A DNA stretch of 64,000 nucleotides from Sphaerisporangium sp. TRM90804 (GTDB lineage: Bacteria; Actinomycetota; Actinomycetes; Streptosporangiales; Streptosporangiaceae): NCBI RefSeq assembly GCF_029846175.1, contig NZ_JARWAC010000005.1, positions 62,001 to 126,000 of the forward strand, in the 5' to 3' direction. The number at the start of each line of letters is the position of its first letter. Position 1 is the first letter of the stretch. A program made the position numbers and the translations under genes. The notes under the pieces are model-generated. The model searched no databases, had not been told where the DNA came from, and worked only from the letters and a program-made list of their open reading frames with translations. Positions 1-64,000 of this stretch are shown here, piece after piece.

Positions 1-646
1 AACCCGAGACGCTCAGGAAGTGCCGCCGCCCTTCGGAGAGGACTCCGTCGGCATGGTAGATCTCCGTGGAGACGAACTCCTCGCACTCGAACCGCGTGAG
101 ATCCAGCCCTTGGACCGCGGCGGTGAGCTCTCGCTCGTCGCCGAGGATTCGCACGCCGACGGACCCCGCCTCGGCTCGCGGTTTGAGCACCAGCGGATAA
201 CCGATCCGAGCGGAGATCTCCGCGAGCGGCGGGGAGGAGCCCAGTTCCATGAACCGGGGAATCGGAAGGTCCTGTTTGGCCAGGCGGTCCTTCATGACGA
301 CCTTGTCCCTGAAGGCCCGCACGAGGTCGGCGCCCGGCCCCGGGCAGCCGAACTCCTCGCGAAGCAACGCCGCGGTGAGCACGTCGTGCTCGGAGAGCGC
401 GGCGATCCCGTCGAAGGGGCCGTACCGTTCCGCGAGCTCCCGGGCCGGTGCGACCAGGGTCGCCGGTCGGAGGTCCGCGACGGTGGCGACCCTGCCCGGT
501 TCGACCGGGCCCAGCGCCTTGACGCACCCGGGCGGGGTCAGGAACGACAGAGCGCAGTCGTGCCCCGCGCAGTACCGGAAGTACTCGGCGTCCTCGTCGT
601 CGTACCGGTTGACGACCAGGTAGTGAGGGAGAGCCCGGCTCGGCAT
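1..646 (-). CDS. ATP-grasp ligase, C-terminal part missing (left edge)
   Basis: Partial gene that starts at the ATG at 646-644 and runs off the left edge, leaving 215 residues. The product begins MPSRALPHYLVVNRYDDED and continues with a pre-ATP-grasp-like region, then FRDKVVMKDRL and YPLVLKPRAEAGSVGV, the usual ATP-grasp nucleotide-binding strand with its lysine and Gly/Ser loop. Such enzymes join a carboxylate to an amine through an acyl-phosphate. It lies 81 bp downstream of the MetRS-like gene on the same strand, as the last visible gene of the hydrazine operon, so it probably ligates a pathway intermediate to an amino acid or carrier. The substrate cannot be read from sequence. The opposite strand carries a longer open frame that has no recognisable protein. 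Confidence 0.8.
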   Translation of the reverse strand, partial: MPSRALPHYLVVNRYDDEDAEYFRYCAGHDCALSFLTPPGCVKALGPVEPGRVATVADLRPATLVAPARELAERYGPFDGIAALSEHDVLTAALLREEFGCPGPGADLVRAFRDKVVMKDRLAKQDLPIPRFMELGSSPPLAEISARIGYPLVLKPRAEAGSVGVRILGDERELTAAVQGLDLTRFECEEFVSTEIYHADGVLSEGRRHFLSVSG

Positions 647-727: not shown

Positions 728-2368
728 TCAGGCCAGGGAGTGGCGCGAGGAGTCCGGCAGCAGCGGCGCCAGGTCGCCGAGCGTGATCGCCTCGAATCCC
801 CAGGGCGCCCCGCCCTGTCGTGGCCGCGTACAGTCCAGGAAGGCGGCCAGGCGTGGTTCCCCGATCCCGCCGAGCTCCTTCCAGATCCGCAGGGAGAGGC
901 CGGGCATGATCGGGAATCCGAGGACGCTCGTGCCCTTCAGCCACCAGTAGGCGCTCTGCTCCAGGTTCCCGGCGCTCCGCCACCAGAGGTCGAACGCCCT
1001 CACCGCCTCCGACGTCGACACGACCTGCGCGTCCAGGGCGGCGTTCTGCCGGTCGAGCAGCGCCTCCAGCGTCACCAGTCGCTCTTCGGTGACGGGCTCG
1101 GGAACGGAGGAGACGTCGAGTGAGCGGCGGGCCCTGAGCAGCAGCGGCGTCAGCGCGCCGGCCAGCCGGGTGTTGACGACGTCGACGAAGGACCGGGGGT
1201 CCATGCTCTCTCGCCGCTCCTCCAGCCGGGTCCCCGCGAGGAAGTACCGGACGGCGTCCACGTCGATGCGTGGCGACCCGGCGATGTCCGCGGCCCAGAT
1301 CGCGTGCTTCCTGCCGGTGGAGAACTTCTCGCCCTCCAGCAGGTAGAAGTCGTTGATCAGCGCCCGGTCGTAGGCCTTCATGTCCCCGTGCAGCAGCGAG
1401 GTGCCGACGATGCAGACGAGCGTGGGAATCACGTTGTCGATGCCGAGGCTGGTCACCGTGGTGACCCCCGAGTGCGGGTGGAAGGCGTTGACGCCGCTCC
1501 CGCTCATGTGCCCGTGCAGGGCGCCCGCCAGCCTGGCGAACATGAAGATCCCCGCATAGGGGAAGAGGGTCCGCGGCACGTCGGGTTCGGTCCGCTCCAG
1601 CGGGATCCCCCATGCTTCGGGAGCGCTCACCCGCACCATGCCGCCATCGCGGGTCAGGTGATGCCGCACCGTTTCCCGGTAACGTGACGGCACGCCCATC
1701 TCCACCATTCGCGCGCCGAGTTCCCCGGGGTCCGCCGGCTTCAGGAAGAGCGACGAGATCTCGCGCCATTCGAGCGGGCCCACCCCGCCGACGCCCCGGG
1801 CGTCGCGCAGGTTCTCCGGCTGGAAGTGCCCACCGCAGGCCTCACAGAAGTAGCTGCCCGTCTCCGCATCGCAGTCGGGGCAACGGCCCGCGAGCCAGGG
1901 GCCGACGGCGAAACGCCCCGCGGAACGGCTGTAGGGCACCCGCTCCCGGCGGGTGACCACCGCTCCCTTCTCCTTCAGCCGTCGAAGGCACCCGGCCACC
2001 TCTTCCTCGAACGCCGTCCGCCAAGGCTCCTGCGCGGGGTTCACGAAGGCGTCGAGATCGATCTTCATCGCCCGCAGATCCTCGGCGATGAGCGCATGGT
2101 ATTCGGCCGCGAGCTCCCCTTCCGTGCGCCCCTCGGTGGCCGCTTTGAGCGTCATGTACGGCTCGTAGACGTCGCTCCCGGTGATGGTGAGCGGCCGGTC
2201 GCCCCGCATGCGGACGAACCGGCTGAGCAGGTCCATCCGGAGGAAGGGGCCTCCGATGTGCCCGAGGTGGAGTCGTCCGTTGGGCGTCGGCTCCGGGGGG
2301 ACGAGCAGGTAGCGGCGCGGCGGGATGTCACCCGCGGTGCGGATGAGGCGCCCCGAGCCAGTGCCCAT
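728..2368 (-). CDS. Methionyl-tRNA synthetase-like enzyme, predicted activation subunit of a split hydrazine synthetase
   Basis: 546 residues. The class I aaRS HIGH motif is HLGH (34-37), a CxxC-x8-CxxC zinc knuckle sits at 163-178, and GIDN at 309-312 matches the MetRS ATP-site region. The KMSKS loop is changed to KFSTGRKH (348-355). The fold is therefore MetRS, but the enzyme is unlikely to be the housekeeping one. In the s56-p1 pathway a MetRS-like domain fused to a cupin (Spb40) activates an amino acid and esterifies it to N6-hydroxylysine before N-N bond formation. Here a separate cupin, a lysine N-hydroxylase and an FAD oxidoreductase sit directly upstream in the operon. The start ATG at 2368 overlaps the preceding TGA by one base. 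The activated amino acid is not predictable; a self-resistance MetRS is a weaker alternative. Confidence 0.85.
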   Translation of the reverse strand: MGTGSGRLIRTAGDIPPRRYLLVPPEPTPNGRLHLGHIGGPFLRMDLLSRFVRMRGDRPLTITGSDVYEPYMTLKAATEGRTEGELAAEYHALIAEDLRAMKIDLDAFVNPAQEPWRTAFEEEVAGCLRRLKEKGAVVTRRERVPYSRSAGRFAVGPWLAGRCPDCDAETGSYFCEACGGHFQPENLRDARGVGGVGPLEWREISSLFLKPADPGELGARMVEMGVPSRYRETVRHHLTRDGGMVRVSAPEAWGIPLERTEPDVPRTLFPYAGIFMFARLAGALHGHMSGSGVNAFHPHSGVTTVTSLGIDNVIPTLVCIVGTSLLHGDMKAYDRALINDFYLLEGEKFSTGRKHAIWAADIAGSPRIDVDAVRYFLAGTRLEERRESMDPRSFVDVVNTRLAGALTPLLLRARRSLDVSSVPEPVTEERLVTLEALLDRQNAALDAQVVSTSEAVRAFDLWWRSAGNLEQSAYWWLKGTSVLGFPIMPGLSLRIWKELGGIGEPRLAAFLDCTRPRQGGAPWGFEAITLGDLAPLLPDSSRHSLA

Positions 2369-3453
2369 CAGCGCTCGCCTCCGGCCGCTTGCCGGGTGAG
2401 CAGGCCGAGGGCCTGTTCGGCCGTCGCCGGTGCCAGGCGGTAACCCGACCCGTTGCCGCCGACGGCGAGGACGACGCCGGGGTGACCGGGCACCGGTTCG
2501 ACCAGCGGCAGACGGTCGTGGGTGTAGCCGTCGTAGAACGCCAGTCCGTCCGCGCCGACCCCGGGGAAGGCGGGAAGGTACCGGCGCAGCACGCGTGTCG
2601 CCTCGCTTCGGTCGGCCGCGCCGAGTGCCGGTGGCCCCGACAGCGGCGAGCCGTCCCATTCCCGGCAGGTGAAGCTGAAGAGCCAGCGGCCGCTGCGCGT
2701 CTCGGGAAGCAGGAAGGCGTCGTCATCCTCGAAGATCAGGACGGGCGCGTTCTCGGGCGGCCTCTCGTCCAGGTAGAACGCCGCGACCTTCTTGATGCGG
2801 AGCCCGGCCGCCCGGATCCGGTCGCCGAAGGGCCCCACGGGCGCCCACGGCCCGGTGGCGATGATCGCCTCACGGCATCGCGCGAGCCGTTGCCCCCGGT
2901 GTCCGAGCAGGTGGTAGCCGCCCGCGTGCGGATCCAAGGCGGTGACGCGCACGTCGTCCCAGACGGCACAGCCGGCGAGGTCCCGCTGCCGGGCGAGAAG
3001 GCTTCGAGCCAGCCCGCCGACGTCCGCGTGATGGGAGCCGTCCGAACGCAGAACCATCCGGTCCCCGGATGGGCGCAGACCGGGGAAGACTCCGGCCAGG
3101 ACGTCCGGATCGGCCTCGCCGAGGCGAGGGCCGGCCATCGTCTCGCGAAGGCGGTTGTAGCCGCAGCGCTCGATCAGCCAGAGGGTGTCCACCGGGCGCA
3201 CGGGCAGCGCGGGGTGCTCGGCGAGCAGCTTCTGGTAGAGGTCCCTGCTGCGCGCCGCCAGCCGGCGCTGGCGGGCGTCGCGTCCGGTCGGCACGTCCAG
3301 CCCCGCGGAGAAGCCGCTCGCGTTGGGGCCGCCCTGGTCGACCGTGAGCACGCGCAGTCCCGGTTCCCTGACGGTGGCGAGGTGGCCGGCGAGCGCGCCG
3401 ACGATCCCGGCCCCGATGACCGCGAGGTCGAAGGCACGGTTCGTGTCCGTCAT
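2368..3453 (-). CDS. FAD-dependent amine/amino-acid oxidoreductase (DAO family), predicted hydrazino-acid releasing enzyme
   Basis: 361 residues. The N-terminus LAVIGAGIVGALAGHLA (about 10-26) is a Rossmann FAD-binding GxGxxG motif. The overall architecture is that of the glycine/D-amino-acid oxidase family, with a C-terminal AVGGNGSGYRLAP FAD-contact segment. In s56-p1 biosynthesis an FAD enzyme (Spb39) oxidatively cleaves the lysine-derived half of the N-N-linked intermediate and releases a hydrazino acid. The position here, between cupin and MetRS-like genes, supports the same role; this is inference from context. The ATG at 3453 overlaps the cupin stop (ATGA), and the stop overlaps the MetRS-like start, so the three are translationally coupled. 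A longer upstream frame exists but has no homology-like content. Confidence 0.85.
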   Translation of the reverse strand: MTDTNRAFDLAVIGAGIVGALAGHLATVREPGLRVLTVDQGGPNASGFSAGLDVPTGRDARQRRLAARSRDLYQKLLAEHPALPVRPVDTLWLIERCGYNRLRETMAGPRLGEADPDVLAGVFPGLRPSGDRMVLRSDGSHHADVGGLARSLLARQRDLAGCAVWDDVRVTALDPHAGGYHLLGHRGQRLARCREAIIATGPWAPVGPFGDRIRAAGLRIKKVAAFYLDERPPENAPVLIFEDDDAFLLPETRSGRWLFSFTCREWDGSPLSGPPALGAADRSEATRVLRRYLPAFPGVGADGLAFYDGYTHDRLPLVEPVPGHPGVVLAVGGNGSGYRLAPATAEQALGLLTRQAAGGER

Positions 3454-3785
3454 CGGCTGCTCCGCCACCAGATCGACAACACGCTGAGCGGGCCGGCGGG
3501 GTCCGCCGTCGCCACGTGCTCGCCGAAGGGCGCGAAGCACAGCAGATCGCCTTTGCCGACGGGGTACGACCCGCCGTCGTATCGGACCGTTCCCGTGCCG
3601 TCGAGCACGAGCCAGATCTCGGTCACGGAATGACTGTCGGGCGGGCTCGCGCACCCCGGCGCCACCGTGAACCGGGCCATGGAGAACGGCTTGTCCCCCT
3701 CGATGCCTTCGAGGGACACGGCCCATTCCTCCAGTGCCTCGAACTCACGCGGCAGGGCCTCGAACTCGAGTCGTGGAAGGCTCAC
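3450..3785 (-). CDS. Stand-alone small cupin, predicted N-N bond-forming subunit of a split hydrazine synthetase
   Basis: 111 residues, starting at the GTG at 3785, which overlaps the hydroxylase stop as GTGA. Cupin motif 1 is seen as HSVTEIWLVLDGTG (52-65), with His and Glu ligands, and motif 2 as GDLLCFAPFGEH (79-90), with the second His. The protein is only one double-stranded beta-helix domain. In characterised hydrazine synthetases such a cupin is one domain of a fusion with a MetRS-like domain and catalyses the rearrangement of the aminoacyl-O-N-lysine ester into an N-N bond. Here it is a separate gene in the same operon, which is the unusual feature. A generic sugar or regulatory cupin is possible on sequence alone; the neighbours decide. 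Confidence 0.85.
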   Translation of the reverse strand: MSLPRLEFEALPREFEALEEWAVSLEGIEGDKPFSMARFTVAPGCASPPDSHSVTEIWLVLDGTGTVRYDGGSYPVGKGDLLCFAPFGEHVATADPAGPLSVLSIWWRSSR

Positions 3786-5002
3786 GTGTTGTACCTCCGG
3801 TATCCGAGGATCGCGTTGAGGATGACCGCGCTCCGCCAGGAGAGCAGGCTGAGGTTGGGGTCGGCGACGCCCCAGGCGTGCCGGGCGCCGTTCTGCAGGA
3901 AGACGCGGCCGCGGGCCCTGCCGTCCAGGGCCAGTGAGAAGTCCTCCCCCACGACGAGCCCTTCGGCCGTCTTCGCCAGCCGAGGGGCGAGGTCGCGCAT
4001 GAAGGCCGGGAGGCGGTACTCGTAGCCGGTGGCGAGGATCACGACGTCCGACCGCACCAGGGCGGGCTCGGGCCCCTGGACCTCCAGCTGCCAGCCGTGG
4101 GACAGCCGCTCGCAACCCCTCACCTCCGACCGGCACATCAGCCGGAGCCAGTTCTTGCGCCCCAGCAGGCATTCGTGCCGGTAACGCTCGCGGTAGATGT
4201 CCTCCAGGGTCGCCAGGTCGATGCCGTCGCTCGCGTACTTCTGCTCGGCCAGGAGCTCTCGTCTGGAGGTCTCCGGCAGACCGTGGAACTCACGGGCGTA
4301 CCCGGGAAAGAAGTACTCGTTGGTGAACGGGGAGTCGTCCATCGGCAGCAGACCTGGCCTTCGCGTGATCCAGTCGATGCTCCGAGGCGGCTCGGCGAGG
4401 CGCATCAGATGGCGGACGATCTCGGCTCCCGACTGCCCTCCGCCGACGACGGTGACGGCCCTGTCGGACAGCTCCCGCCGTCTCAGCAGGTACTGCCCGG
4501 CGTGGAACACCTCCGAGCACAGATGGGGGCGCATGCACGCGGGGACGAACGGTGTCTGACCGGTCCCGAGGACCACGTTCCTCGCCGTGACCTCGCCGTG
4601 TTCCCAGCGGAGGACGAAATCACCGTCGCGTTGTGAGACGCTGCGCACCTCGACGCCGAACTCGATGGACGGGATGGTCCTGGACGCCCACTGGAGGTAC
4701 TGGTCGAACTCCGTCCGCAGGACCGAGGGAAACCGCGCGGTGAGGAACCGGTAGAGCCGCCCCTCCGCGGCGAGGAAGGCCAGGAACGAGTATCGGCTGG
4801 TCGGATCCACCAACGTGACCAGGTCCTTCAGAGGCGAGACCTGCAGCGTCGCCTCGGGCAGGAGCAGGCCGGGGTGCCACGCCGCGCTCTCCCGGGCCTC
4901 CAGGTGCACCCCACGCAGGTTCTCGACGTTGTCCCCGAGCGCCGCGAGGCTGAGGTTGGCCGGGCCGACGCCGACCGCCGCGTAGTCGTAGACCTCGGTC
5001 AT
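3782..5002 (-). CDS. L-lysine N6-monooxygenase (NADPH, FAD)
   Basis: 406 residues of the IucD/SidA/PvdA N-hydroxylating monooxygenase family. The FAD motif GVGPANLSLA is at 11-20, an NADPH-binding VVGGGQSGAEIV lies near the middle, and the C-terminal ATGYEYRLP segment carries the typical ATGY motif. It would hydroxylate the side-chain amine of lysine (or ornithine) with O2 and NADPH. Siderophore pathways use such enzymes, but there is no siderophore synthetase, acyltransferase or TonB/ABC receptor here. Coupling with the cupin and MetRS-like genes instead points to N6-hydroxylysine as the hydrazine precursor. It overlaps the ATP-grasp gene upstream (ATGA) and the cupin downstream (GTGA). Confidence 0.9.
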   Translation of the reverse strand: MTEVYDYAAVGVGPANLSLAALGDNVENLRGVHLEARESAAWHPGLLLPEATLQVSPLKDLVTLVDPTSRYSFLAFLAAEGRLYRFLTARFPSVLRTEFDQYLQWASRTIPSIEFGVEVRSVSQRDGDFVLRWEHGEVTARNVVLGTGQTPFVPACMRPHLCSEVFHAGQYLLRRRELSDRAVTVVGGGQSGAEIVRHLMRLAEPPRSIDWITRRPGLLPMDDSPFTNEYFFPGYAREFHGLPETSRRELLAEQKYASDGIDLATLEDIYRERYRHECLLGRKNWLRLMCRSEVRGCERLSHGWQLEVQGPEPALVRSDVVILATGYEYRLPAFMRDLAPRLAKTAEGLVVGEDFSLALDGRARGRVFLQNGARHAWGVADPNLSLLSWRSAVILNAILGYRRYNT

Positions 5003-6246
5003 TTGACGATCATCAGATCGCCCAGCGACTTCCAGAACTCCCGGGCGGCCGGGTGCGACTGCGCCGTGTAGCGCACCCAGGCCAGCCGCGAACGGCAGTC
5101 GCCGGTCTTGGGGATGGGGGCGCCCGGGGGGATGGAGACGTGCCGCCCGATGACATCGGGCAGGTCTCCCAGCTCGTCCCAGCCGAGTATCCCGGAGTAG
5201 GAGTCGAGGTGGTCGGCGGTGAGGAACCTGACAGCGGCGTTCGGCGCGCGGGGGGCGCCGAACGCCGCCAACTCCCCGGGGTCGACGCCGAGACCGGCCG
5301 CGAGCGTGACCGCCACCAGATCGGTGCCGGTGACCTGGCGAACCAGCTCCGGAATGCCGTCGCCCGCGAGTCGAGCGCCGAGCTCGATCAGAACGGGGCC
5401 CTCGCCGTTCAGGCGCAGCTCGCAGTGGAACGGGCCGGTCGTGACGTTGAGCGCCCGGACGACCTGCGCGGTGTACTCGGCCACGTCGCCCACCACGTCG
5501 TCCGGCAGGTCCGCCGGTGTCAGGTGGCCCAGCTCGACGAACCTCGGCTCGGCGCCGAGAACCTTCTCCGTGATCGCGACGACGGTCACCCGGCCGTTCT
5601 CGACATAGCCGTCGGTGCTGACCTCCCGGCCGGACACGTACTGCTCGACGACCACGGTGTGACCCATCGGACGGCCGAGGTCGAGCTCCCGGTCATCGGC
5701 GAGGGCGGTGTACGCGGCGGCGAGCTGGGGCCAGTCGTCGGCCCGGCTCACATGGATGCTCCCGGAGGACTCGACCGGCTTCATCACGCACGGGTAGCCG
5801 ACGTGCGCGGCCGCGGAGCGCAGCCCGTCCAGGGACCGCGCCTCGGCGAACCTCGGGGCGCGCAGTCCGGCCGCGGCGATCCTCTCTCGCATGCGCGCCT
5901 TGTTGCGGACCGCGTCCACCGTCGCCACCGGCAGGCCGGGCAGCCCGAGACGCGCCGCGAGCCTGGCCGTCGAGGCGACGTAGAAGTCGCACCCCGGGAG
6001 CACCGCCGTGAGCGGCGCGCGCTCGTGGAACGCGCCGACGGCGTCTAAGAGCGCCTGCTCGTCGTTGGTGTCGACGGTCAGGACGATGTCGACGACCTTT
6101 CTGAGGTCCGCCGGGATCTCGCACTCGCCGGAGTCCTGCGAGGCGACCACCACCGTGACGCCGAGGCGGTGCGCGAGCCGGGCGACGTCCGCGCCGCCGG
6201 ACACCGGCTCAACGATCAGGACGGACGAACCGACTGGATCGAACAC
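4999..6246 (-). CDS. ATP-grasp amino-acid/carboxylate ligase
   Basis: 415 residues. A Rossmann-like N-domain is followed by an ATP-grasp domain: KARMRERI at about 130, YPCVMKPVESSGSIHV at about 165, VVVEQYVSGREVSTDGYV, and the metal-binding GPFHCELRLNGEGPVLIELGARLAGDGIP. This resembles L-amino-acid ligases and carboxylate-amine ligases such as BacD, which make peptide bonds through an acyl-phosphate. The GTG start at 6246 is fixed by a perfect AGGAGG 7 bp upstream. It is the third gene of the operon and overlaps the hydroxylase. The likely job is peptide-bond formation with a hydrazino or hydroxylated amino acid; the substrates are unknown. Confidence 0.88.
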   Translation of the reverse strand: MFDPVGSSVLIVEPVSGGADVARLAHRLGVTVVVASQDSGECEIPADLRKVVDIVLTVDTNDEQALLDAVGAFHERAPLTAVLPGCDFYVASTARLAARLGLPGLPVATVDAVRNKARMRERIAAAGLRAPRFAEARSLDGLRSAAAHVGYPCVMKPVESSGSIHVSRADDWPQLAAAYTALADDRELDLGRPMGHTVVVEQYVSGREVSTDGYVENGRVTVVAITEKVLGAEPRFVELGHLTPADLPDDVVGDVAEYTAQVVRALNVTTGPFHCELRLNGEGPVLIELGARLAGDGIPELVRQVTGTDLVAVTLAAGLGVDPGELAAFGAPRAPNAAVRFLTADHLDSYSGILGWDELGDLPDVIGRHVSIPPGAPIPKTGDCRSRLAWVRYTAQSHPAAREFWKSLGDLMIVK

Positions 6247-6267: not shown

Positions 6268-7155
6268 TCACGCCTGCTTGGCCGTGGTGTAGACGACCAG
6301 TTCCCGCTCCCCGGCCTCGAAGCGGACGTCCAGCGAGGACAACTCGCCGAGGCCGCCGAGATGCGTACCGCCGCAGGGGATCCGGGCGCGCCCCGCCGGC
6401 AGCTCGCAGGTCCACCAGCGGCGGGCGGTGAGTCCCGGTCCCTCGGTCTCGATCACGCTGCAACCGCCGGCCGCGATCCACTCCGCCAGCCGGGCCGTGA
6501 CGGCCTCCTGTACCGAGTCGATCCGCTCCAGAAAAACCGCCACCTCCAGACCGGCTTTGCGCAGCGACTTGCCGAGGCGGTACCGGTCGACGCTCTGCCC
6601 CGGGCTCATCCTCGACGTCGTGATCGCGAGCTGGTCGAAGTCCGGGTGGCCGAGACAGTCGACGCGCGGGGACTTGCGCCACAGGTCGCGAAGCTCCATG
6701 TTCAGCGCGAGGGACATCAGATGGGCTCCGGTGTGCGCGGCGCTCAGGCTCGCCCGGCGGGCCGTGTCCACCTTCAGCGTCACCGCGTTCCCCACGAGAG
6801 CCGCGGGAGGCGTGTCGGCGGCCATCTCCACGACGTGGCCCACCAGGAAGGCCCAGCCCGGGTCGGTGCGCCGGGCGGGTATCGCCTCCCCCCGGTGCAC
6901 CGAGCCGTCCGGGCCGACCGCCATCGTGATGGCGTCGACGACGGTGTGCTCCGTCTCCCGGACGGTCGCAGTACCCCGATCACCCGGCTGGTCGGGCCAG
7001 GTGTGGTCGATCGGGTGGAACGGCGTCCGGTCCGTCGCCACCAGCAGCGCCCCGTCGTCGCCGGCGGGCTCCGCCAGGACGATCCTCGCCTCGCACTCCC
7101 CGACGCCCTGCGGGAAGAGAACAACCGTGCTCTCGGTCGGAAAGCTCACGCCCAT
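6268..7155 (-). CDS. Stand-alone alanyl-tRNA editing-domain (AlaX-like) protein
   Basis: 295 residues. The zinc-binding pattern of AlaRS and AlaX editing domains is intact: HTGAH (141-145) and CGGTH (261-265). A TPFHPIDHTWPDQPGDRG stretch near 44-61 corresponds to the TPFYaegGGQvgDtG motif of the editing fold. The family deacylates mischarged tRNA such as Ser-tRNA(Ala) or Gly-tRNA(Ala). Its place inside the hydrazine operon is unusual. It could clear tRNA mischarged with the pathway's own amino-acid analogue (self-protection), or act as a repurposed hydrolase or tRNA-dependent biosynthetic enzyme. Both ideas are inference. It lies 42 bp after the oxygenase and 21 bp before the ATP-grasp gene. 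Confidence 0.85.
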   Translation of the reverse strand: MGVSFPTESTVVLFPQGVGECEARIVLAEPAGDDGALLVATDRTPFHPIDHTWPDQPGDRGTATVRETEHTVVDAITMAVGPDGSVHRGEAIPARRTDPGWAFLVGHVVEMAADTPPAALVGNAVTLKVDTARRASLSAAHTGAHLMSLALNMELRDLWRKSPRVDCLGHPDFDQLAITTSRMSPGQSVDRYRLGKSLRKAGLEVAVFLERIDSVQEAVTARLAEWIAAGGCSVIETEGPGLTARRWWTCELPAGRARIPCGGTHLGGLGELSSLDVRFEAGERELVVYTTAKQA

Positions 7156-7197: not shown

Positions 7198-8958
7198 TCA
7201 GACGGCGAACGCCGTGTCGATGACGCGGCTGCGGAGCCTGCGGTGACCGGCCGAGGGCACGAGGTCCCGCACCACGCAGACACGCTGGAGCCACCGGTCG
7301 TGGCCGTCGTACCTGGCCTGGAACTGCGAGCGGCCGTGGACGGCCCGGCGGTTGTCGATGATCAGCAGATCCCCCGTGTCGAGACGCGCCCATCGGCGCA
7401 CCTCGTTCAGCACGGCGTGCAGCCGCTTCAGCGCCGCGGCCGCCTCCGGCACGATCCCGACCATGAGATCGGGGTCCACGGTGATGTACGGGTCGAACGG
7501 GTCGCCGTACAGGACGCGGAGTAACGGGCCGTTGCCCTTCTGGCCGTTGGGACTGCCGAAGGAATAGTCGATTCCGGTCCGGTACAAAGGCTCGCTGAGG
7601 ATCGCGCGATCGCGCGCGCTGAGCCGGGGAAGGGCCATGCGAAGGCTCGCGCTGATCGTCATGGCCGACTTCTCGTGATCGGGGCGGAGGCAGTGAAGCA
7701 GCACATAGTCAGGCATAAACGGGTGAAATGCCGTCTCAGTGTGATAATCCAGAAGGAGTGATGAGCTTTCCGACGAAAGCCTTTCGGCGTTCTGCGGCGT
7801 CGGCACCACGTTCTGGAAGATCTGGCCGTTCTTCTCCTGCCGGTAACCGATGGGCTCGCCCAAGGCCTGCGCGAACGCCGCGAGCCACAACTCGCTGAGC
7901 GGGTTGACGAACCGGACGCGCGCCCTGGGGTCGGCGGGAGTGGGCGGTAGCTCCGGGTCCACGGGCAGCCCTTTGAGCAGCAGGACGCCGGAGTCGGTGC
8001 CGTGCCGCCGGAACCGGCTCACGGCCTGCCTGATCACCCGCGGCATCTCGTGGAACCGCAGCTCCGCCTCCCGCAGGAACGCGTCCTCGTCGGCTTCGCA
8101 GTCGAGCAGGAACCCGTCGGCGATCCCGGTGAGGAGGTGGGAGTACAGCCCCGCGTCGACGACGTGCGGCCCGGGCTCGTCCTTCAGGTTCTCGGTGCGC
8201 GAGAACTCACGTCCGGTGAGCCGGAGGGTGTTGACCACTCTGGACGCCTGTTCACCGATCGAACCCTCGGGCTCGGCGCCCGACAGCCAGGCCAGCACCC
8301 CCAGGAGGAGCCGGGCGTTGTCCTCGCGCCCGAGGAAGGGTCGTGCGAACATCTCGGCGTTCCCCACCACGGCGATCCTGCCTCTGCCGTGGGTCGCCAC
8401 CCCCAGGAAGGTGTCACCGTCGTTGCGCAGGAGCGGGGTCAGCGGGACGGAGGCGCTGACGGGCTTGGGCCGGTGGAGATGCGCGCGGGCGACGCCCGTC
8501 AGGGCCGGATGGGAGGTGCCCGCCTCCACCGGGAAGTCACGGGACAGGACGTGCGGCTGGGCCGGGTCCGAAGGGGCTCCGGGCACCAGATCGCCTATGA
8601 CGATGCCGAAAGGCGTCGTGCCGCCCGCCGTCGACGGCCCGTCCTCCCCGTCGCCGAGGACCAGGACCGCGCCGCCCTCGCGCACGTACCTGTCGAGGGC
8701 GGCGCACTCCTCGGCGGTGAACGTCGCTCCGTCGAGGCCGGGAGCGGGGATCAGGATGAGGTCCAGGCCGTTGAGCGCATTCTCTTCGAGCCCGTGCTCG
8801 ATCAGATGCGTCGTTCCACCGAAACATTCATCGACGAGCTCCGCCACATCGGCGACGACACCCACTTCGGAGAAGTCGACCGGACGACCGTGGCCCGCTT
8901 TCCGAAGAAGATCGATTTTCCACACCGAGGCGTGTACCACGTCAGTACCGATCAGCAT
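7198..8958 (-). CDS. Clavaminate synthase-like Fe(II)/2-oxoglutarate oxygenase with N-terminal amidotransferase-like domain
   Basis: 586 residues from the ATG at 8958, chosen because GGAGGAG sits 6 bp upstream; a GTG 33 bp earlier is in frame. Residues about 1-230 resemble a ThuA/class I amidotransferase-like flavodoxin fold (LDLILIPAPG, GGAVLVLGDGE, GRIAVVGNAEMF). The second half is a TauD/CAS-like oxygenase: HTE iron ligands near 406-408, distal His in AVHGRSQF near 541, and the 2-oxoglutarate-binding Arg a little later. The HxE variant is typical of amino-acid beta-hydroxylases such as VioC, AsnO and clavaminate synthase, so hydroxylation of a free amino acid is likely. I do not recognise this two-domain fusion. 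It is the first gene of the operon. Confidence 0.82.
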   Translation of the reverse strand: MLIGTDVVHASVWKIDLLRKAGHGRPVDFSEVGVVADVAELVDECFGGTTHLIEHGLEENALNGLDLILIPAPGLDGATFTAEECAALDRYVREGGAVLVLGDGEDGPSTAGGTTPFGIVIGDLVPGAPSDPAQPHVLSRDFPVEAGTSHPALTGVARAHLHRPKPVSASVPLTPLLRNDGDTFLGVATHGRGRIAVVGNAEMFARPFLGREDNARLLLGVLAWLSGAEPEGSIGEQASRVVNTLRLTGREFSRTENLKDEPGPHVVDAGLYSHLLTGIADGFLLDCEADEDAFLREAELRFHEMPRVIRQAVSRFRRHGTDSGVLLLKGLPVDPELPPTPADPRARVRFVNPLSELWLAAFAQALGEPIGYRQEKNGQIFQNVVPTPQNAERLSSESSSLLLDYHTETAFHPFMPDYVLLHCLRPDHEKSAMTISASLRMALPRLSARDRAILSEPLYRTGIDYSFGSPNGQKGNGPLLRVLYGDPFDPYITVDPDLMVGIVPEAAAALKRLHAVLNEVRRWARLDTGDLLIIDNRRAVHGRSQFQARYDGHDRWLQRVCVVRDLVPSAGHRRLRSRVIDTAFAV

Positions 8959-9014
8959 TCCCGGCTCCTCCGCGTGAATGTCCAGTCTCACAGGACACGC
9001 TAGGAAGAGTTAGT

Positions 9015-17124: not shown

Positions 17125-18702
17125 ATGACCCGCGTGGTCCTGCTGGGCGCCTCGCCCGGCCCGATCGGTTCTACCGAGCACGTCCCGCCCGGTCGCCTGG
17201 CGCTGACGTCGCTCCCCGGCTCGCCCACCGTGCTGGGCAGGCTGTACGACCAGCTCCTCACGATGGACGCCGAGCCGCTGGCCGTCGCCCGGCCGGGCGA
17301 GGCCGAGGAGCTCCGTGGTCTCCCCGGCCGGGTCGTGGACTCCCCCGACCTGGCGGGCGACCTGCGGGCGGTCGCCGACGCGGCCGAGAGCGCCACGGAG
17401 AACCTCTTCCTCATCCCCGCCAACGCGGTGATCCACGATGAGCTGATCTACCAGATCACCAAGACCAAGCGGGGCGCGCTGGCGCTGATCGCCAAGGAGC
17501 CGCGCGAGGAGGACGCCGACGGCGAGCCGCTGCGGCCGGAGGCCCCCATCGAGGAGGCGGAGCCCGAGATCGGCGCCCGCTTCCACGAGGGCCTTCCCGT
17601 GCGCATGCGCGCCGGGCGCTCGCGCATCGTGTCGGTCGGCTCGGCCTACCACGCGGTCACCCGGCCGAACTCGGTGGCGCTCGGCCCGCTGCACGTGCAC
17701 GTCAAGCACGCCCCGGTGCTGGCCGAGGCGGCGCGCGAGCTGGCCGGCATGGCCCACCTGTTCGGGCCGGAGGACGACCTCGTGCAGCTGCTGGTGCTGG
17801 GCCTGGTGCGCCGCGGCGTCGCGGTCGGCCTGCGCGGCCGCAGAGACCTGTTCTACGCCCGGGCCGGCTCGCAGGCCGAGGCCGACGAGGCCGTGGCCGC
17901 CATGGCGGGGTACGACGAGGACCGCGCGCGGCTGAACAACGCCGTCAAGGGGGCCGACGGCTTCTTCACGACGTTCTTCGTCAGCACCTACTCGCGGTTC
18001 ATCGCCCGCTGGGCGGCGCGGCGCGGCCTCACGCCCAACCAGGTCACGCTGATCTCCATCGCGCTCGGCGTGCTGGCGGCGGCGGCGTTCGCGACCGGCA
18101 CCCGGGTGGGCGCGGTCGCGGGCGGCCTGCTGATCTACTTCGCCTTCGTGTTCGACTGCGTCGACGGCCAGGTGGCCCGGTACGCCCGCCAGTTCGGCGT
18201 GCTCGGGGCGTGGCTTGACGCCACGTTCGACCGCGCCAAGGAGTACATCGTCTTCGCCGGGCTGGCGATCGGCGCCACCGTCGCCGGGCAGGGCGACGTG
18301 TGGACGCTCGCGCTGGTCGCCCTGTCGGTGCAGTCGGTGCGTCACCTGCTCGACTTCTCCTTCGGCGCCGCCAACCGGCGCAAGCCGCCGACGCCGCTGC
18401 CGACGCTGGCGCTCACCGCGGCCGACGACCGCCCGCTGCGCGACGCGCTCGACAGGCGCCGCACCACCACCGCCCAGGGCGGCGTGCGCGGCCTGCTGCG
18501 GCTGTGGACCCAGGCCGGGCGGTTCCGCGCCGTCCACTGGGCGCGCAAGATGATCGTCTTCCCGATCGGCGAGCGGTTCGCCGCCATCGCGATCACCGCG
18601 GCTCTCTTCGAGCCCAGGGTCACGTTCCTCACGCTTGTGATCTGGGGCTGTGTCGCGTTCGCCTACACCCTGACCGGACGTCTCATGAGGTCGCTCGCAT
18701 GA
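17125..18702 (+). CDS. CDP-alcohol phosphatidyltransferase with N-terminal nucleotidyltransferase-like domain
   Basis: 525 residues. The first ~250 have a nucleotide-sugar-like alpha/beta fold of uncertain activity. The C-terminal half is a membrane CDP-alcohol phosphotransferase: the motif D-x2-D-G-x2-A-R-x8-G-x3-D-x3-D is seen as DCVDGQVARYARQFGVLGAWLD ending in ATFD. Several helices surround it. It would transfer a phospho-alcohol from a CDP donor, possibly in inositol-phosphate or phospholipid synthesis. A GAAAGGGTG precedes the ATG. It overlaps the next gene by 4 bp, so the two probably act together. Confidence 0.85.
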   Translation: MTRVVLLGASPGPIGSTEHVPPGRLALTSLPGSPTVLGRLYDQLLTMDAEPLAVARPGEAEELRGLPGRVVDSPDLAGDLRAVADAAESATENLFLIPANAVIHDELIYQITKTKRGALALIAKEPREEDADGEPLRPEAPIEEAEPEIGARFHEGLPVRMRAGRSRIVSVGSAYHAVTRPNSVALGPLHVHVKHAPVLAEAARELAGMAHLFGPEDDLVQLLVLGLVRRGVAVGLRGRRDLFYARAGSQAEADEAVAAMAGYDEDRARLNNAVKGADGFFTTFFVSTYSRFIARWAARRGLTPNQVTLISIALGVLAAAAFATGTRVGAVAGGLLIYFAFVFDCVDGQVARYARQFGVLGAWLDATFDRAKEYIVFAGLAIGATVAGQGDVWTLALVALSVQSVRHLLDFSFGAANRRKPPTPLPTLALTAADDRPLRDALDRRRTTTAQGGVRGLLRLWTQAGRFRAVHWARKMIVFPIGERFAAIAITAALFEPRVTFLTLVIWGCVAFAYTLTGRLMRSLA

Positions 18703-61655: not shown

Positions 61656-64000
61656 GTGGCGCAGGGAACGAACGGGCAGGTCGGCACCGATGTCCCGGGC
61701 GGGTTGCCGTCCATCGGCGGCGGCGGCTCCTCCACCGACGTCACGCCCGCCTGGACCGAGGACCTGCCCGGCTGGGTCGACACCCTCATCGCGCTGATCG
61801 TCTCGGGGCAGAGCTGGCCGGAGGCCAGCGAGAGCAAGCTGTGGGAGCTGGCGCGCGAGCACCAGGCCCTCGGCGCCGGGCTGTGCGCCTCCGCCGGGCC
61901 GGTCGCGGACGCGTGCGGCGTCATGCTCAGCGCCTGGAACGTGCCCGCGACGCCGTTCTTCGCGCAGGAGGCCAAGCGGCTGCTCGGCTCCCCCGACTCC
62001 GGCATTCCCGCGCTGGGCGCGCAGAACCTGACCTACGCCCTGCAGGCCGACCACTTCGCGAAGGAGACGCAGTACTCCAAGATCTCGATCAACGTCGCGT
62101 TCTGGGTGGCGGTCGCCGCGGCGTTCATCGCGCTGGTCGCCACGTTCTTCACCGCCGGCGCAGGCGCCCCGGTCATCGGGCCGATCGCCGCGTGGGCGCG
62201 CACGGCCATCGGCCAGATCCTGCAGCGGCTGGCGACGGCCGCGCGGACGACCTTCGGCGTCAACCTGGCCGTCCAGACGGGCGGACGCGCGGCCGGCGCG
62301 GGCCTCGCCCGTACGGCGCTCAGCGGTCACCTCGGCAGGGAGCTCATCGAGGAGATCGGTGAAGAGGTCTTCATCGACGCCTACACGCAGCGCGAGCAGA
62401 TGGAGCGGGGCACGCGCACGAGCTGGGACTGGAGCAGGACGGCCGCCTCCGCCGTGGGAGCGGGCGGGGGCGCCTTCATCGGGATGCGGGCGGCGGCGCC
62501 GCTGGCCCGGCTCGGCGACAGGATTCCGCTGCTCAGGGCGCTCAACAACGCGGGCGGCACCGACCCGGGCTTCGCCAACGCCTTCGCCCGCTTCCCCGGC
62601 CGGGCCGTGCAGACGGGCCTCAACAACATGGTCGCCTCGCCCGGCGGCAGCGTCCTGGCCAACGGCCTGGTCTACGGTCAGTGGACGCTGCCCACGGCCG
62701 AGTCCCTGCTCGGCGCCGCGATGGGCGGCGCCGGCCGCACCAACACGATCAGCCCGTTCAACCCCGACGTCCTGGCCGCCGTGACCCACCCCCTTGCCAC
62801 CCTCGACGCCGCCACCGCCACCGCCACGGCCGCCGACGCCGCCCGCACGACCGCCTCAGACCCCACCACCACCACCGCCGGAACCAGCGGAACCCCGACG
62901 CCCACTGCCGCCCCCGGAACCGGCACGACCGGCACGACCGGCACGACCGGCACGACGGGTGCGACCACCGGAGCCCCTCCGGACCCCAACGCCATGAACG
63001 CCGCCACCACCGGCATCCCCCCGACCGGCGGCACGGGAACCGGCGGCACGGGAACCACTGGCACCGGAACCGGCACGCCGCCCCCGGCCGCGAACACCGC
63101 GCCGACCACCGGGAACGGCCCCGGCACTTCGGGCGCCGCCCCGTCAGCCCCCCAGGGCACAACGTCGTCCCCGACTCCCGGCGGCACGCCGATGCCCCCC
63201 TCCGCCTCCCCGGCGGCAACCGGTACGGCCGTCCCCGCCCCACCCACCGCCTCCCCCGGAACCGGCACCGCCGTCCCCCCGCCACCCGCCGCTCCGCCCG
63301 CAACGACAGGTACGGCCGTCCCCGCACCACCCACCGGCTCGCCAGCGGCAACCGGCACCGCTCCCCCCGCGACAACGGGGACCGTCGGCTCGGCGGCCGC
63401 TGGGGCCTCGGCGCCGGGGCCCGTCGGACAGATGGCGGGATCGTCGGCGACGTCGGCTTCTCCGCAGGCGGCGTCAGCGTCCTCCGGCGCGACCGCTCCC
63501 GCACCCGCGGGGGGCTCGCCGTCCTCCGGCACGCCCGCGGCCCCGGCCGTCCCCGCCGCCGGTGCGCCCGGGGTCGCGACACCGCCGTCCGGCGCGGCCA
63601 CGCCGCCGCAAGGCACGTCCCCCGCCCCGCAAGGCACGTCCCCCGCCCCGCCCGGCACGTCCCCCGCCCCGCCCGGCACGTCCCCCGCCCCGCCCGGCGC
63701 GTCCCCCGCCCCGCCCGGCGCGTCCCCCGCCCCGCCCGGCGCGTCCCCCGACCCCGCGGGCACCTCGGCCACCCCGGGTGCGGCGACGACGCCGCCGGGG
63801 ACGGGCGGGCCCGCGCCGGGTGCGGGGTCAGCGGCGGGCATGGCCGCGTCCTCGGCGGGCAGCGTCCCGGCCCAGGGCGGGACCCCGGGCCCGGCTGTGG
63901 TCATTCCGCTCCAGGGCGGCGGCGCGGCGAGTGTGTCCTCTCCGGCCGCGCCGGGCGGCCCGCGGCCCTCCGGCCGGGGCGGAACGGCACCGAACGCGCC
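61656..64000 (+). CDS. Large T7SS-type secreted protein, N-terminal part only (right edge)
   Basis: 781 residues visible and still open at the right edge, from the GTG at 61656. Residues about 30-330 are an alpha-helical domain with a hydrophobic segment (ISINVAFWVAVAAAFIALVATFFTAG) typical of the N-terminal half of CpnT-like and polymorphic-toxin proteins of actinobacteria (GQSWPEASESKLWELAREHQALGAGLC). From about 385 on it is a long Pro/Ala/Thr/Gly-rich region with tandem repeats. Such proteins usually end in a toxin or enzyme domain, which lies outside the window. The WXG100-like gene upstream supports ESX export. Confidence 0.8.
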   Translation, partial: MAQGTNGQVGTDVPGGLPSIGGGGSSTDVTPAWTEDLPGWVDTLIALIVSGQSWPEASESKLWELAREHQALGAGLCASAGPVADACGVMLSAWNVPATPFFAQEAKRLLGSPDSGIPALGAQNLTYALQADHFAKETQYSKISINVAFWVAVAAAFIALVATFFTAGAGAPVIGPIAAWARTAIGQILQRLATAARTTFGVNLAVQTGGRAAGAGLARTALSGHLGRELIEEIGEEVFIDAYTQREQMERGTRTSWDWSRTAASAVGAGGGAFIGMRAAAPLARLGDRIPLLRALNNAGGTDPGFANAFARFPGRAVQTGLNNMVASPGGSVLANGLVYGQWTLPTAESLLGAAMGGAGRTNTISPFNPDVLAAVTHPLATLDAATATATAADAARTTASDPTTTTAGTSGTPTPTAAPGTGTTGTTGTTGTTGATTGAPPDPNAMNAATTGIPPTGGTGTGGTGTTGTGTGTPPPAANTAPTTGNGPGTSGAAPSAPQGTTSSPTPGGTPMPPSASPAATGTAVPAPPTASPGTGTAVPPPPAAPPATTGTAVPAPPTGSPAATGTAPPATTGTVGSAAAGASAPGPVGQMAGSSATSASPQAASASSGATAPAPAGGSPSSGTPAAPAVPAAGAPGVATPPSGAATPPQGTSPAPQGTSPAPPGTSPAPPGTSPAPPGASPAPPGASPAPPGASPDPAGTSATPGAATTPPGTGGPAPGAGSAAGMAASSAGSVPAQGGTPGPAVVIPLQGGGAASVSSPAAPGGPRPSGRGGTAPNA
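63612..63758 (+). repeat. Seven tandem 21-bp units in the large secreted protein
   Basis: Units start at 63612 and every 21 bp after, each GGCRCGTCCCCCGCCCCGCMM, encoding G(T/A)SPAPP. The first has CAA in place of CCC at the end and the last is degenerate. A 9-bp GGCACGACC repeat (GTT codons) occurs earlier at about 62922-62960. The number of units probably varies between strains. Confidence 0.85.

Follow-up and report, generated by a model that had tools for sequence, protein, structure and literature searches.

Organization of the operon

The window analysed here is the 64,000-nucleotide stretch of the soil actinomycete Sphaerisporangium sp. TRM90804 at positions 62,001 to 126,000 of contig NZ_JARWAC010000005.1. 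At its left end, an operon on the minus strand encodes a predicted hydrazine synthetase as two separate proteins, a zinc cupin and a protein resembling methionyl-tRNA synthetase (MetRS-like). The first-pass annotation had reported four genes at positions 728-5002 (N-hydroxylase, 111-aa cupin, flavin adenine dinucleotide (FAD) oxidase and MetRS-like protein) with overlaps of 1-4 bp; coordinates and Pfam matches agree, with 4 bp shared by hydroxylase and cupin, 4 bp by cupin and oxidase and 1 bp by oxidase and MetRS-like gene. ATP-grasp ligase 1 overlaps the hydroxylase by a further 4 bp. The operon is longer than these positions, beginning upstream with a TauD gene and crossing the left end of the window with a second ATP-grasp gene and a transporter of the major facilitator superfamily (MFS). 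The gene order is TauD, AlaX-like, ATP-grasp 1, hydroxylase, cupin, oxidase, MetRS-like, ATP-grasp 2 and transporter, plus a regulator of the Streptomyces antibiotic regulatory protein (SARP) type. The features are as follows (coordinates beginning with L are those of other extracted stretches).

7198..8958, minus strand: TauD-type Fe(II)/2-oxoglutarate oxygenase with an N-terminal GATase-like domain (DUF4350-like), a relative of clavaminate synthase and arginine beta-hydroxylase; the open reading frame (ORF) could open at 8991, and 8958, where the alignment of relatives begins, is the likeliest start
6268..7155, minus strand: AlaX-like protein (alanyl-tRNA editing domain family), 295 aa, zinc motifs HxxxH and CGGTH
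4999..6246, minus strand: ATP-grasp ligase 1, L-amino acid ligase type, 415 aa
3782..5002, minus strand: flavin-dependent N-hydroxylase, 406 aa, lysine N6-type enzymes nearest (PF13434, E 7e-99)
3450..3785, minus strand: standalone zinc cupin, GTG start, 111 aa (PF07883, E 3e-12), predicted N-N-forming half of the hydrazine synthetase
2368..3453, minus strand: DAO-type FAD oxidase, 361 aa (PF01266, E 6e-30), in the Spb39/Tri27 pathway position
728..2368, minus strand: standalone MetRS-like protein, 546 aa (PF09334, E 2e-35), with HLGH and KFSTG, predicted ester-forming half
1..645, minus strand: 5' part of ATP-grasp ligase 2, 408 aa, the remainder lying beyond the window edge (L006:16420-17646)
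L006:15167-16423, outside the window: MFS exporter, after ATP-grasp 2
L006:12199-15087, outside the window: SARP/AfsR-like regulator, convergent

The order hydroxylase-cupin-oxidase-MetRS-like is identical in nine further clusters, so the four-gene arrangement is not a product of chance. Past the operon start lie glyS and zinc-transporter genes (names read from the translations by eye). A role for glyS in the pathway was considered and dropped; a glyS query had no match in the 19.5-20 kb stretches of five Streptosporangiaceae relatives.

Assignment of the hydrazine synthetase

The top match of the cupin among structures in the Protein Data Bank (PDB) is 5UQP, which is RHS1 (E 8e-13). PMC8664883 describes RHS1 of Rhodococcus jostii RHA1 as a standalone zinc cupin whose formation of the N-N bond is proven and whose zinc ligands are D63, H65, E69 and H103, and gives the ligands of the PyrN cupin as H50, H52, E56 and H90. 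Residues D50, H52, E56 and H90 of the window cupin are spaced like the RHS1 ligands, and in our alignment all four are kept in 10 of 10 related clusters. Because the RHS1 zinc ligands are preserved throughout, the sequence-based assignment of the cupin and the MetRS-like protein as a hydrazine synthetase is strong.

All 10 clusters likewise preserve HLGH and K348, the predicted ATP-site lysine of the KFST motif, in the MetRS-like protein. The first-pass annotation was right that KMSKS is altered: the motif reads KFSTG in the window protein and KFSTS in the nine other clusters. K348 would correspond to K458 of PyrN. No anticodon-binding domain was reported for the protein in the Pfam search. 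Its top PDB match is 9l8v (E 7e-47), an entry named only methionine-tRNA ligase, with the common stretch KFSTGRKHA.WA. The Robbsia homolog is annotated as methionine--tRNA ligase, and such proteins can be misnamed.

The hydroxylase ranks nearest to 6xbb (an unnamed monooxygenase) and to lysine N6-monooxygenases in the PDB, with ornithine enzymes lower. The DAO-type oxidase adjoins the hydroxylase and synthetase genes, as in the Spb38-39-40 pathway. The cupin (3785-3450) and the MetRS-like protein (2368-728) are encoded separately, on either side of the oxidase gene, and not as a single polypeptide of the Spb40 type. The earlier identification of these genes as a hydrazine-forming set is supported by the RHS1 match, by the ligand spacing and, less securely, by the apparent grouping of the MetRS-like protein with hydrazine synthetases in the tree described below; the two proteins do not appear to cluster with unrelated families or to lack the metal and substrate residues conserved in hydrazine synthetases.

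Split and fused synthetases

The first-pass annotation took the cupin and MetRS-like domains to be one polypeptide elsewhere, and the split form therefore to be new. This does not stand. Separate proteins were published in 2021 (PMC8664883), and PMC11705231 gives four synthetases as accession pairs and describes the albofungin pair Afn8/Afn9. The split hydrazine synthetase is already published and common, and the claim of novelty fails. In a sample of 392 genomes from one genus, taken to be Streptomyces, a MetRS-like match of E 1e-38 or better occurs at 47 places in 45 genomes; all 47 were classified, giving 21 split, 23 fused and 3 without a recognised cupin in the stretch, with L124 entered as split although its cupin match is 3.6 kb off and it groups in the tree with cupin-less rows. 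Split pairs are also plasmid-borne in Robbsia, Burkholderia, Pantoea, Deinococcus, Rhodococcus and Streptomyces.

The MetRS-like tree holds the 46 of 79 rows left after an 80% identity filter, and its deep order is insecure, with long branches. The window protein lies in a 14-row group without a fused member (100/99), and 18 fused rows form a separate clade (100/100). A third group consists of nine further split rows and the second synthetase of the TRM90804 genome, and a single fused row (L094) pairs with the RHA1 partner on long branches. The window protein thus sits with split rows that have a cupin and a hydroxylase, apart from two MetRS-like rows of the same genome; the sole biochemically proven synthetase in the tree is the RHA1 partner row. 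The row MetRS_L003 turned out to be the second hydrazine synthetase of the genome, which leaves two rows in the MetRS group.

This second split locus, of another lineage (L166:8799-13200, G000:C3), comprises a hydroxylase, a cupin, a MetRS-like protein and a 330-aa TauD oxygenase; its cupin is 61% identical to that of Deinococcus ficus, and an ATP-grasp gene follows 4 kb further on, at 17140-18498. At L125:7553-11457, L124:7834-11569 and L041:7714-11548, a MetRS-like gene and an N-hydroxylase are accompanied by a 2-oxoglutarate-Fe oxygenase (PF10014, 67-69% identical) in place of the adjacent cupin, and the MetRS-like relatives L040, L126 and L043 have no recognised cupin nearby. These sets may make a product other than a hydrazine.

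ATP-grasp ligases and the neighbourhood of split synthetases

The nearest solved structures of both window ATP-grasps are L-amino acid ligases, namely BL00235, RizA-type 4wd3 and BacD (3vot for ligase 1, E 5e-31; 4wd3 for ligase 2, E 1e-20); the LAL_C2 match of ligase 1 is below the cut-off. The two classes of synthetase in the Streptomyces sample keep different company. An ATP-grasp occurs in the stretch in 18 of 21 split and 9 of 23 fused places; for an adenylating enzyme or nonribosomal peptide synthetase (NRPS) the figures are 4 of 21 and 21 of 23. After collapse at 80% identity the counts are 8/10 split versus 3/11 fused for ATP-grasp (Fisher p 0.03) and 1/10 versus 9/11 for adenylating enzyme or NRPS (Fisher p 0.002). 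No ATP-grasp match was found in any of 15 control stretches. The association of split synthetases with ATP-grasps is a lead and not proof, because the rows are related and the ligases used to make the ATP-grasp model lie near split synthetases, which may favour that class.

A DAO oxidase stands beside all 23 fused synthetases versus 3 of the 21 split ones (L038, L122 and L123, all of the window clade), with L042 giving a weak 25% DAO match. Within this sample, a split synthetase with a DAO oxidase marks the window type. Outside it, a Burkholderia split synthetase is accompanied by an FAD oxidoreductase (30% DAO match) and an ATP-grasp, and the same combination is present by annotation in Pantoea and Deinococcus. 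On the plasmids of Deinococcus ficus (L088:1-6281) and Pantoea agglomerans (L084:857-6542) the order is hydroxylase-cupin-MetRS-like-FAD oxidoreductase with ATP-grasps, the same logic across phyla.

Relatives of the cluster

A MetRS-like gene of at least 67% identity is present in 6 of 345 genomes of the order: TRM90804, three Microbispora, Streptosporangium violaceochromogenes and Sphaerisporangium album. At the level of the class, 12 of 394 genomes have a MetRS-like match of E 1e-38 or better. A scan of contigs returned four loci, every one of this cluster. TRM90804 shares its gene order with the three Microbispora. The operon of S. violaceochromogenes differs by an additional, third ligase, by a divergent ligase 2 (37%) and by its MFS gene, which is another one and occupies another place. 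The S. album cluster has divergent copies of TauD (about 50%) and AlaX (43%), and its TauD gene has moved. An EamA-type transporter gene occurs in four of five relatives, that of Microbispora amethystogenes being located in L028, and in the S. album flank; the window cluster has none. An apparent oxidase/MetRS-like fusion in Microbispora (open frames of 932-957 aa) was rejected, since the coordinates put the two genes in different frames.

The Streptomyces cousins L038, L039, L122 and L123 keep the order ATP-grasp 1-hydroxylase-cupin-DAO-MetRS-like-ATP-grasp 2 at 38-61% identity. Unlike the window cluster, L038, L039 and L122 lack TauD and AlaX in the stretch and carry a pyridoxal phosphate (PLP) enzyme of the threonine-aldolase kind, whereas L123 possesses both TauD and AlaX as well as a third ligase, differently arranged. 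The PLP enzyme belongs to the beta-eliminating-lyase/threonine-aldolase family and is weakly GntG-like (78 bits, cut-off 230); enzymes of this family make or break beta-hydroxy amino acids.

The TauD and AlaX-like proteins

Within the stretches examined, TauD and AlaX are jointly present in seven of the ten clade clusters and jointly absent from the other three. The TauD domain matches clavaminate synthases, asparagine oxygenase, lysine 3-hydroxylase and arginine beta-hydroxylases, and the iron triad is intact in 7 of 7. Because these relatives hydroxylate amino acids and the triad is kept, the TauD product is likely a hydroxylated amino acid. The same genome holds a second GATase-TauD gene (L079:9127-16363, G000:C4) with EamA, M20 peptidase, Lrp and MFS genes and without hydrazine genes; this EamA/M20/Lrp/MFS unit adjoins the hydrazine core in S. 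album. The second TauD gene had seemed broken by a TAG codon, a suggestion we discarded as its 587-aa ORF is intact.

The zinc motifs HTxxH and CGGTH of the AlaX-like protein are present in all five aligned cluster proteins. AlaX trees were built from 15 loci and 8 contexts of the 106 genomes with a match, with 20 rows each after removal of duplicates; the second tree omits the long-branched L067 and adds L123. In the second tree the AlaX of Streptomyces L123 shares one clade with those of five Streptosporangiaceae clusters (100/98), and that of S. album nests among other homologs as sister to L053 (98/96), a placement with which the first tree agrees. As the S. album protein has an origin different from that of the other six, these trees indicate that AlaX was placed beside the core at least twice.

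Proposed pathway and alternatives

The reading we favour, by a modest degree, is that a two-protein zinc-cupin hydrazine synthetase operates inside an NRPS-free peptide pathway with a hydrazide-containing product and AlaX-like self-protection. The activities, substrates and product below are predicted from gene content and order, conservation, catalytic residues and tree placement. The flavoenzyme would convert lysine to N6-hydroxylysine; the MetRS-like protein would activate an amino acid with ATP and esterify it to the hydroxylamine oxygen; and the cupin would rearrange the unstable ester to create the N-N bond. Cleavage of a C-N bond by the DAO-type oxidase would then free a hydrazino acid, which would be hydrazinoacetic acid with glycine as the partner. 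The two ATP-grasps would couple this acid to one amino acid or two, including one that TauD has hydroxylated, to give a hydrazide-containing peptide for export by the MFS protein. The AlaX-like protein probably guards the producer by hydrolysing tRNA (or another ester) mischarged with the unusual amino acid of the pathway. A bolder extension, which we put forward tentatively and regard as rather doubtful, is that these clusters define a family of NRPS-free hydrazide peptides in which split synthetases supply the ATP-grasp ligases and TauD and AlaX-like form a coupled module, the hydroxylated amino acid mischarging tRNA and proofreading having been acquired as self-resistance at least twice.

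Several observations weigh against the scheme. The sequence fixes neither the amino acid partner nor the bond cut by the oxidase, whose PDB match is weak. The AlaX-like protein matches no Pfam family at E 1 and reaches 22 bits against the NCBIfam AlaXM model (cut-off 300); because it passes no curated family cut-off it is named only AlaX-like. In eight AlaX contexts outside the clusters no predicted ORF matched the MetRS-like protein, hydroxylase or cupin, and at three places, one of them in the TRM90804 genome, TauD homologs have no AlaX match in the surrounding 19.5-20 kb. The TauD-AlaX link is therefore not strict, TauD standing alone at those places and AlaX being widespread without hydrazine genes. 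One of the eight AlaX contexts (L069) has a TauD-like ORF (38%).

The role of the AlaX-like protein is the part of the scheme with the most serious competitor: it might be a biosynthetic hydrolase or acyl-transfer enzyme, or a chromosomal neighbour with no part in the pathway, a reading we consider somewhat unlikely but by no means negligible. As would suit such a reading, 106 of 345 genomes of the order contain a homolog, and in four of the eight contexts AlaX neighbours a CynX/NimT-like MFS gene; yet five clusters have the gene in the same operon position, a sixth has it immediately behind ATP-grasp 2, in S. album it precedes ATP-grasp 1 by about 150 bp, and it is missing wherever TauD is missing (3 of 3). 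A little less probable is that the same split synthetase makes another hydrazine, with a partner other than glycine or with the oxidase cutting at the alpha carbon as Apy10 does, so that a different hydrazino acid is ligated or retained. According to PMC11705231, the amino acid accepted by hydrazine synthetases can be Gly, Ala, Ser, Glu or Tyr, and two related oxidases, Spb39 and Apy10, cleave opposite bonds; the window DAO is just 33-37% identical to the DAOs beside fused synthetases; a DAO adjoining a lysine-type hydroxylase is, however, the Spb38-39-40 arrangement as outlined in PMC13274452, a point that is not decisive.

It is improbable that the reaction of the MetRS-like protein and cupin ends, or has by drift come to end, with an ester or hydroxamate lacking the N-N bond: PyrN without a working cupin gives a hydroxamate shunt product (PMC8664883), and some MetRS-like/hydroxylase pairs have no recognised cupin nearby, but the four zinc ligands of the cupin are present in every cluster of this clade. 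Least credible of all is a second methionyl-tRNA synthetase, for instance a resistance copy, in an accidental neighbourhood. The MetRS-like protein does align along almost its entire length with the NCBIfam methionine--tRNA ligase equivalog model, at 468 bits (cut-off 551); against this stand the altered KMSKS, the lack of a reported anticodon domain, the fixed linkage to cupin and hydroxylase, the position in the tree, and the presence in the TRM90804 genome of a separate MetRS-like gene of 595 aa.

Split synthetases approach fused ones in number in the Streptomyces sample, and most of them adjoin ATP-grasps and not adenylating enzymes, which suggests small hydrazine peptides that searches for NRPS or polyketide synthase genes may miss. 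The compact operons of the window clade are suited to heterologous expression, and the TauD-AlaX pairing offers a testable case of tRNA proofreading as self-resistance.

Comparison with known systems

A search of the open-access literature returned no paper describing TauD, AlaX and two ATP-grasps together with a split synthetase; as a whole the operon is an uncharacterised variant of the hydrazine pathways that appears undescribed, and a new product is plausible. Among the closest known systems is the split synthetase of R. jostii RHA1, which has separate cupin and MetRS-like genes (35% and 26-27% identical to those of the window), an N-hydroxylase, the zinc ligands D-x-H-xxx-E and H, and an ATP-grasp nearby. 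It differs in carrying a luciferase-like oxygenase and a FemAB-like gene in the stretch, with no DAO match, TauD or AlaX.

The Spb38-Spb39-Spb40 set of s56-p1 and the Tri, Azs and Nng sets of triacsin, azaserine and N-nitroglycine share the hydroxylase, DAO-type oxidase, cupin and MetRS-like functions with the window (from the pathway descriptions in PMC11705231, PMC10445470 and PMC13274452), but their cupin and MetRS-like domains are fused; this comparison is by published description. The fused rows of our survey fall in another clade of the tree and stand beside adenylating enzymes and GNAT proteins. The negamycin cluster, again compared by description (PMC12154649), combines hydrazinoacetate, an ATP-grasp and a lysine-derived hydroxylated part, as the window cluster may do, although there the hydrazinoacetate comes from the heme enzyme NegJ, and N-methylation and beta-lysine genes are present. 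By analogy, negamycin would offer a partial precedent for a scheme in which a hydrazino acid is joined to amino acids by ATP-grasp ligases.

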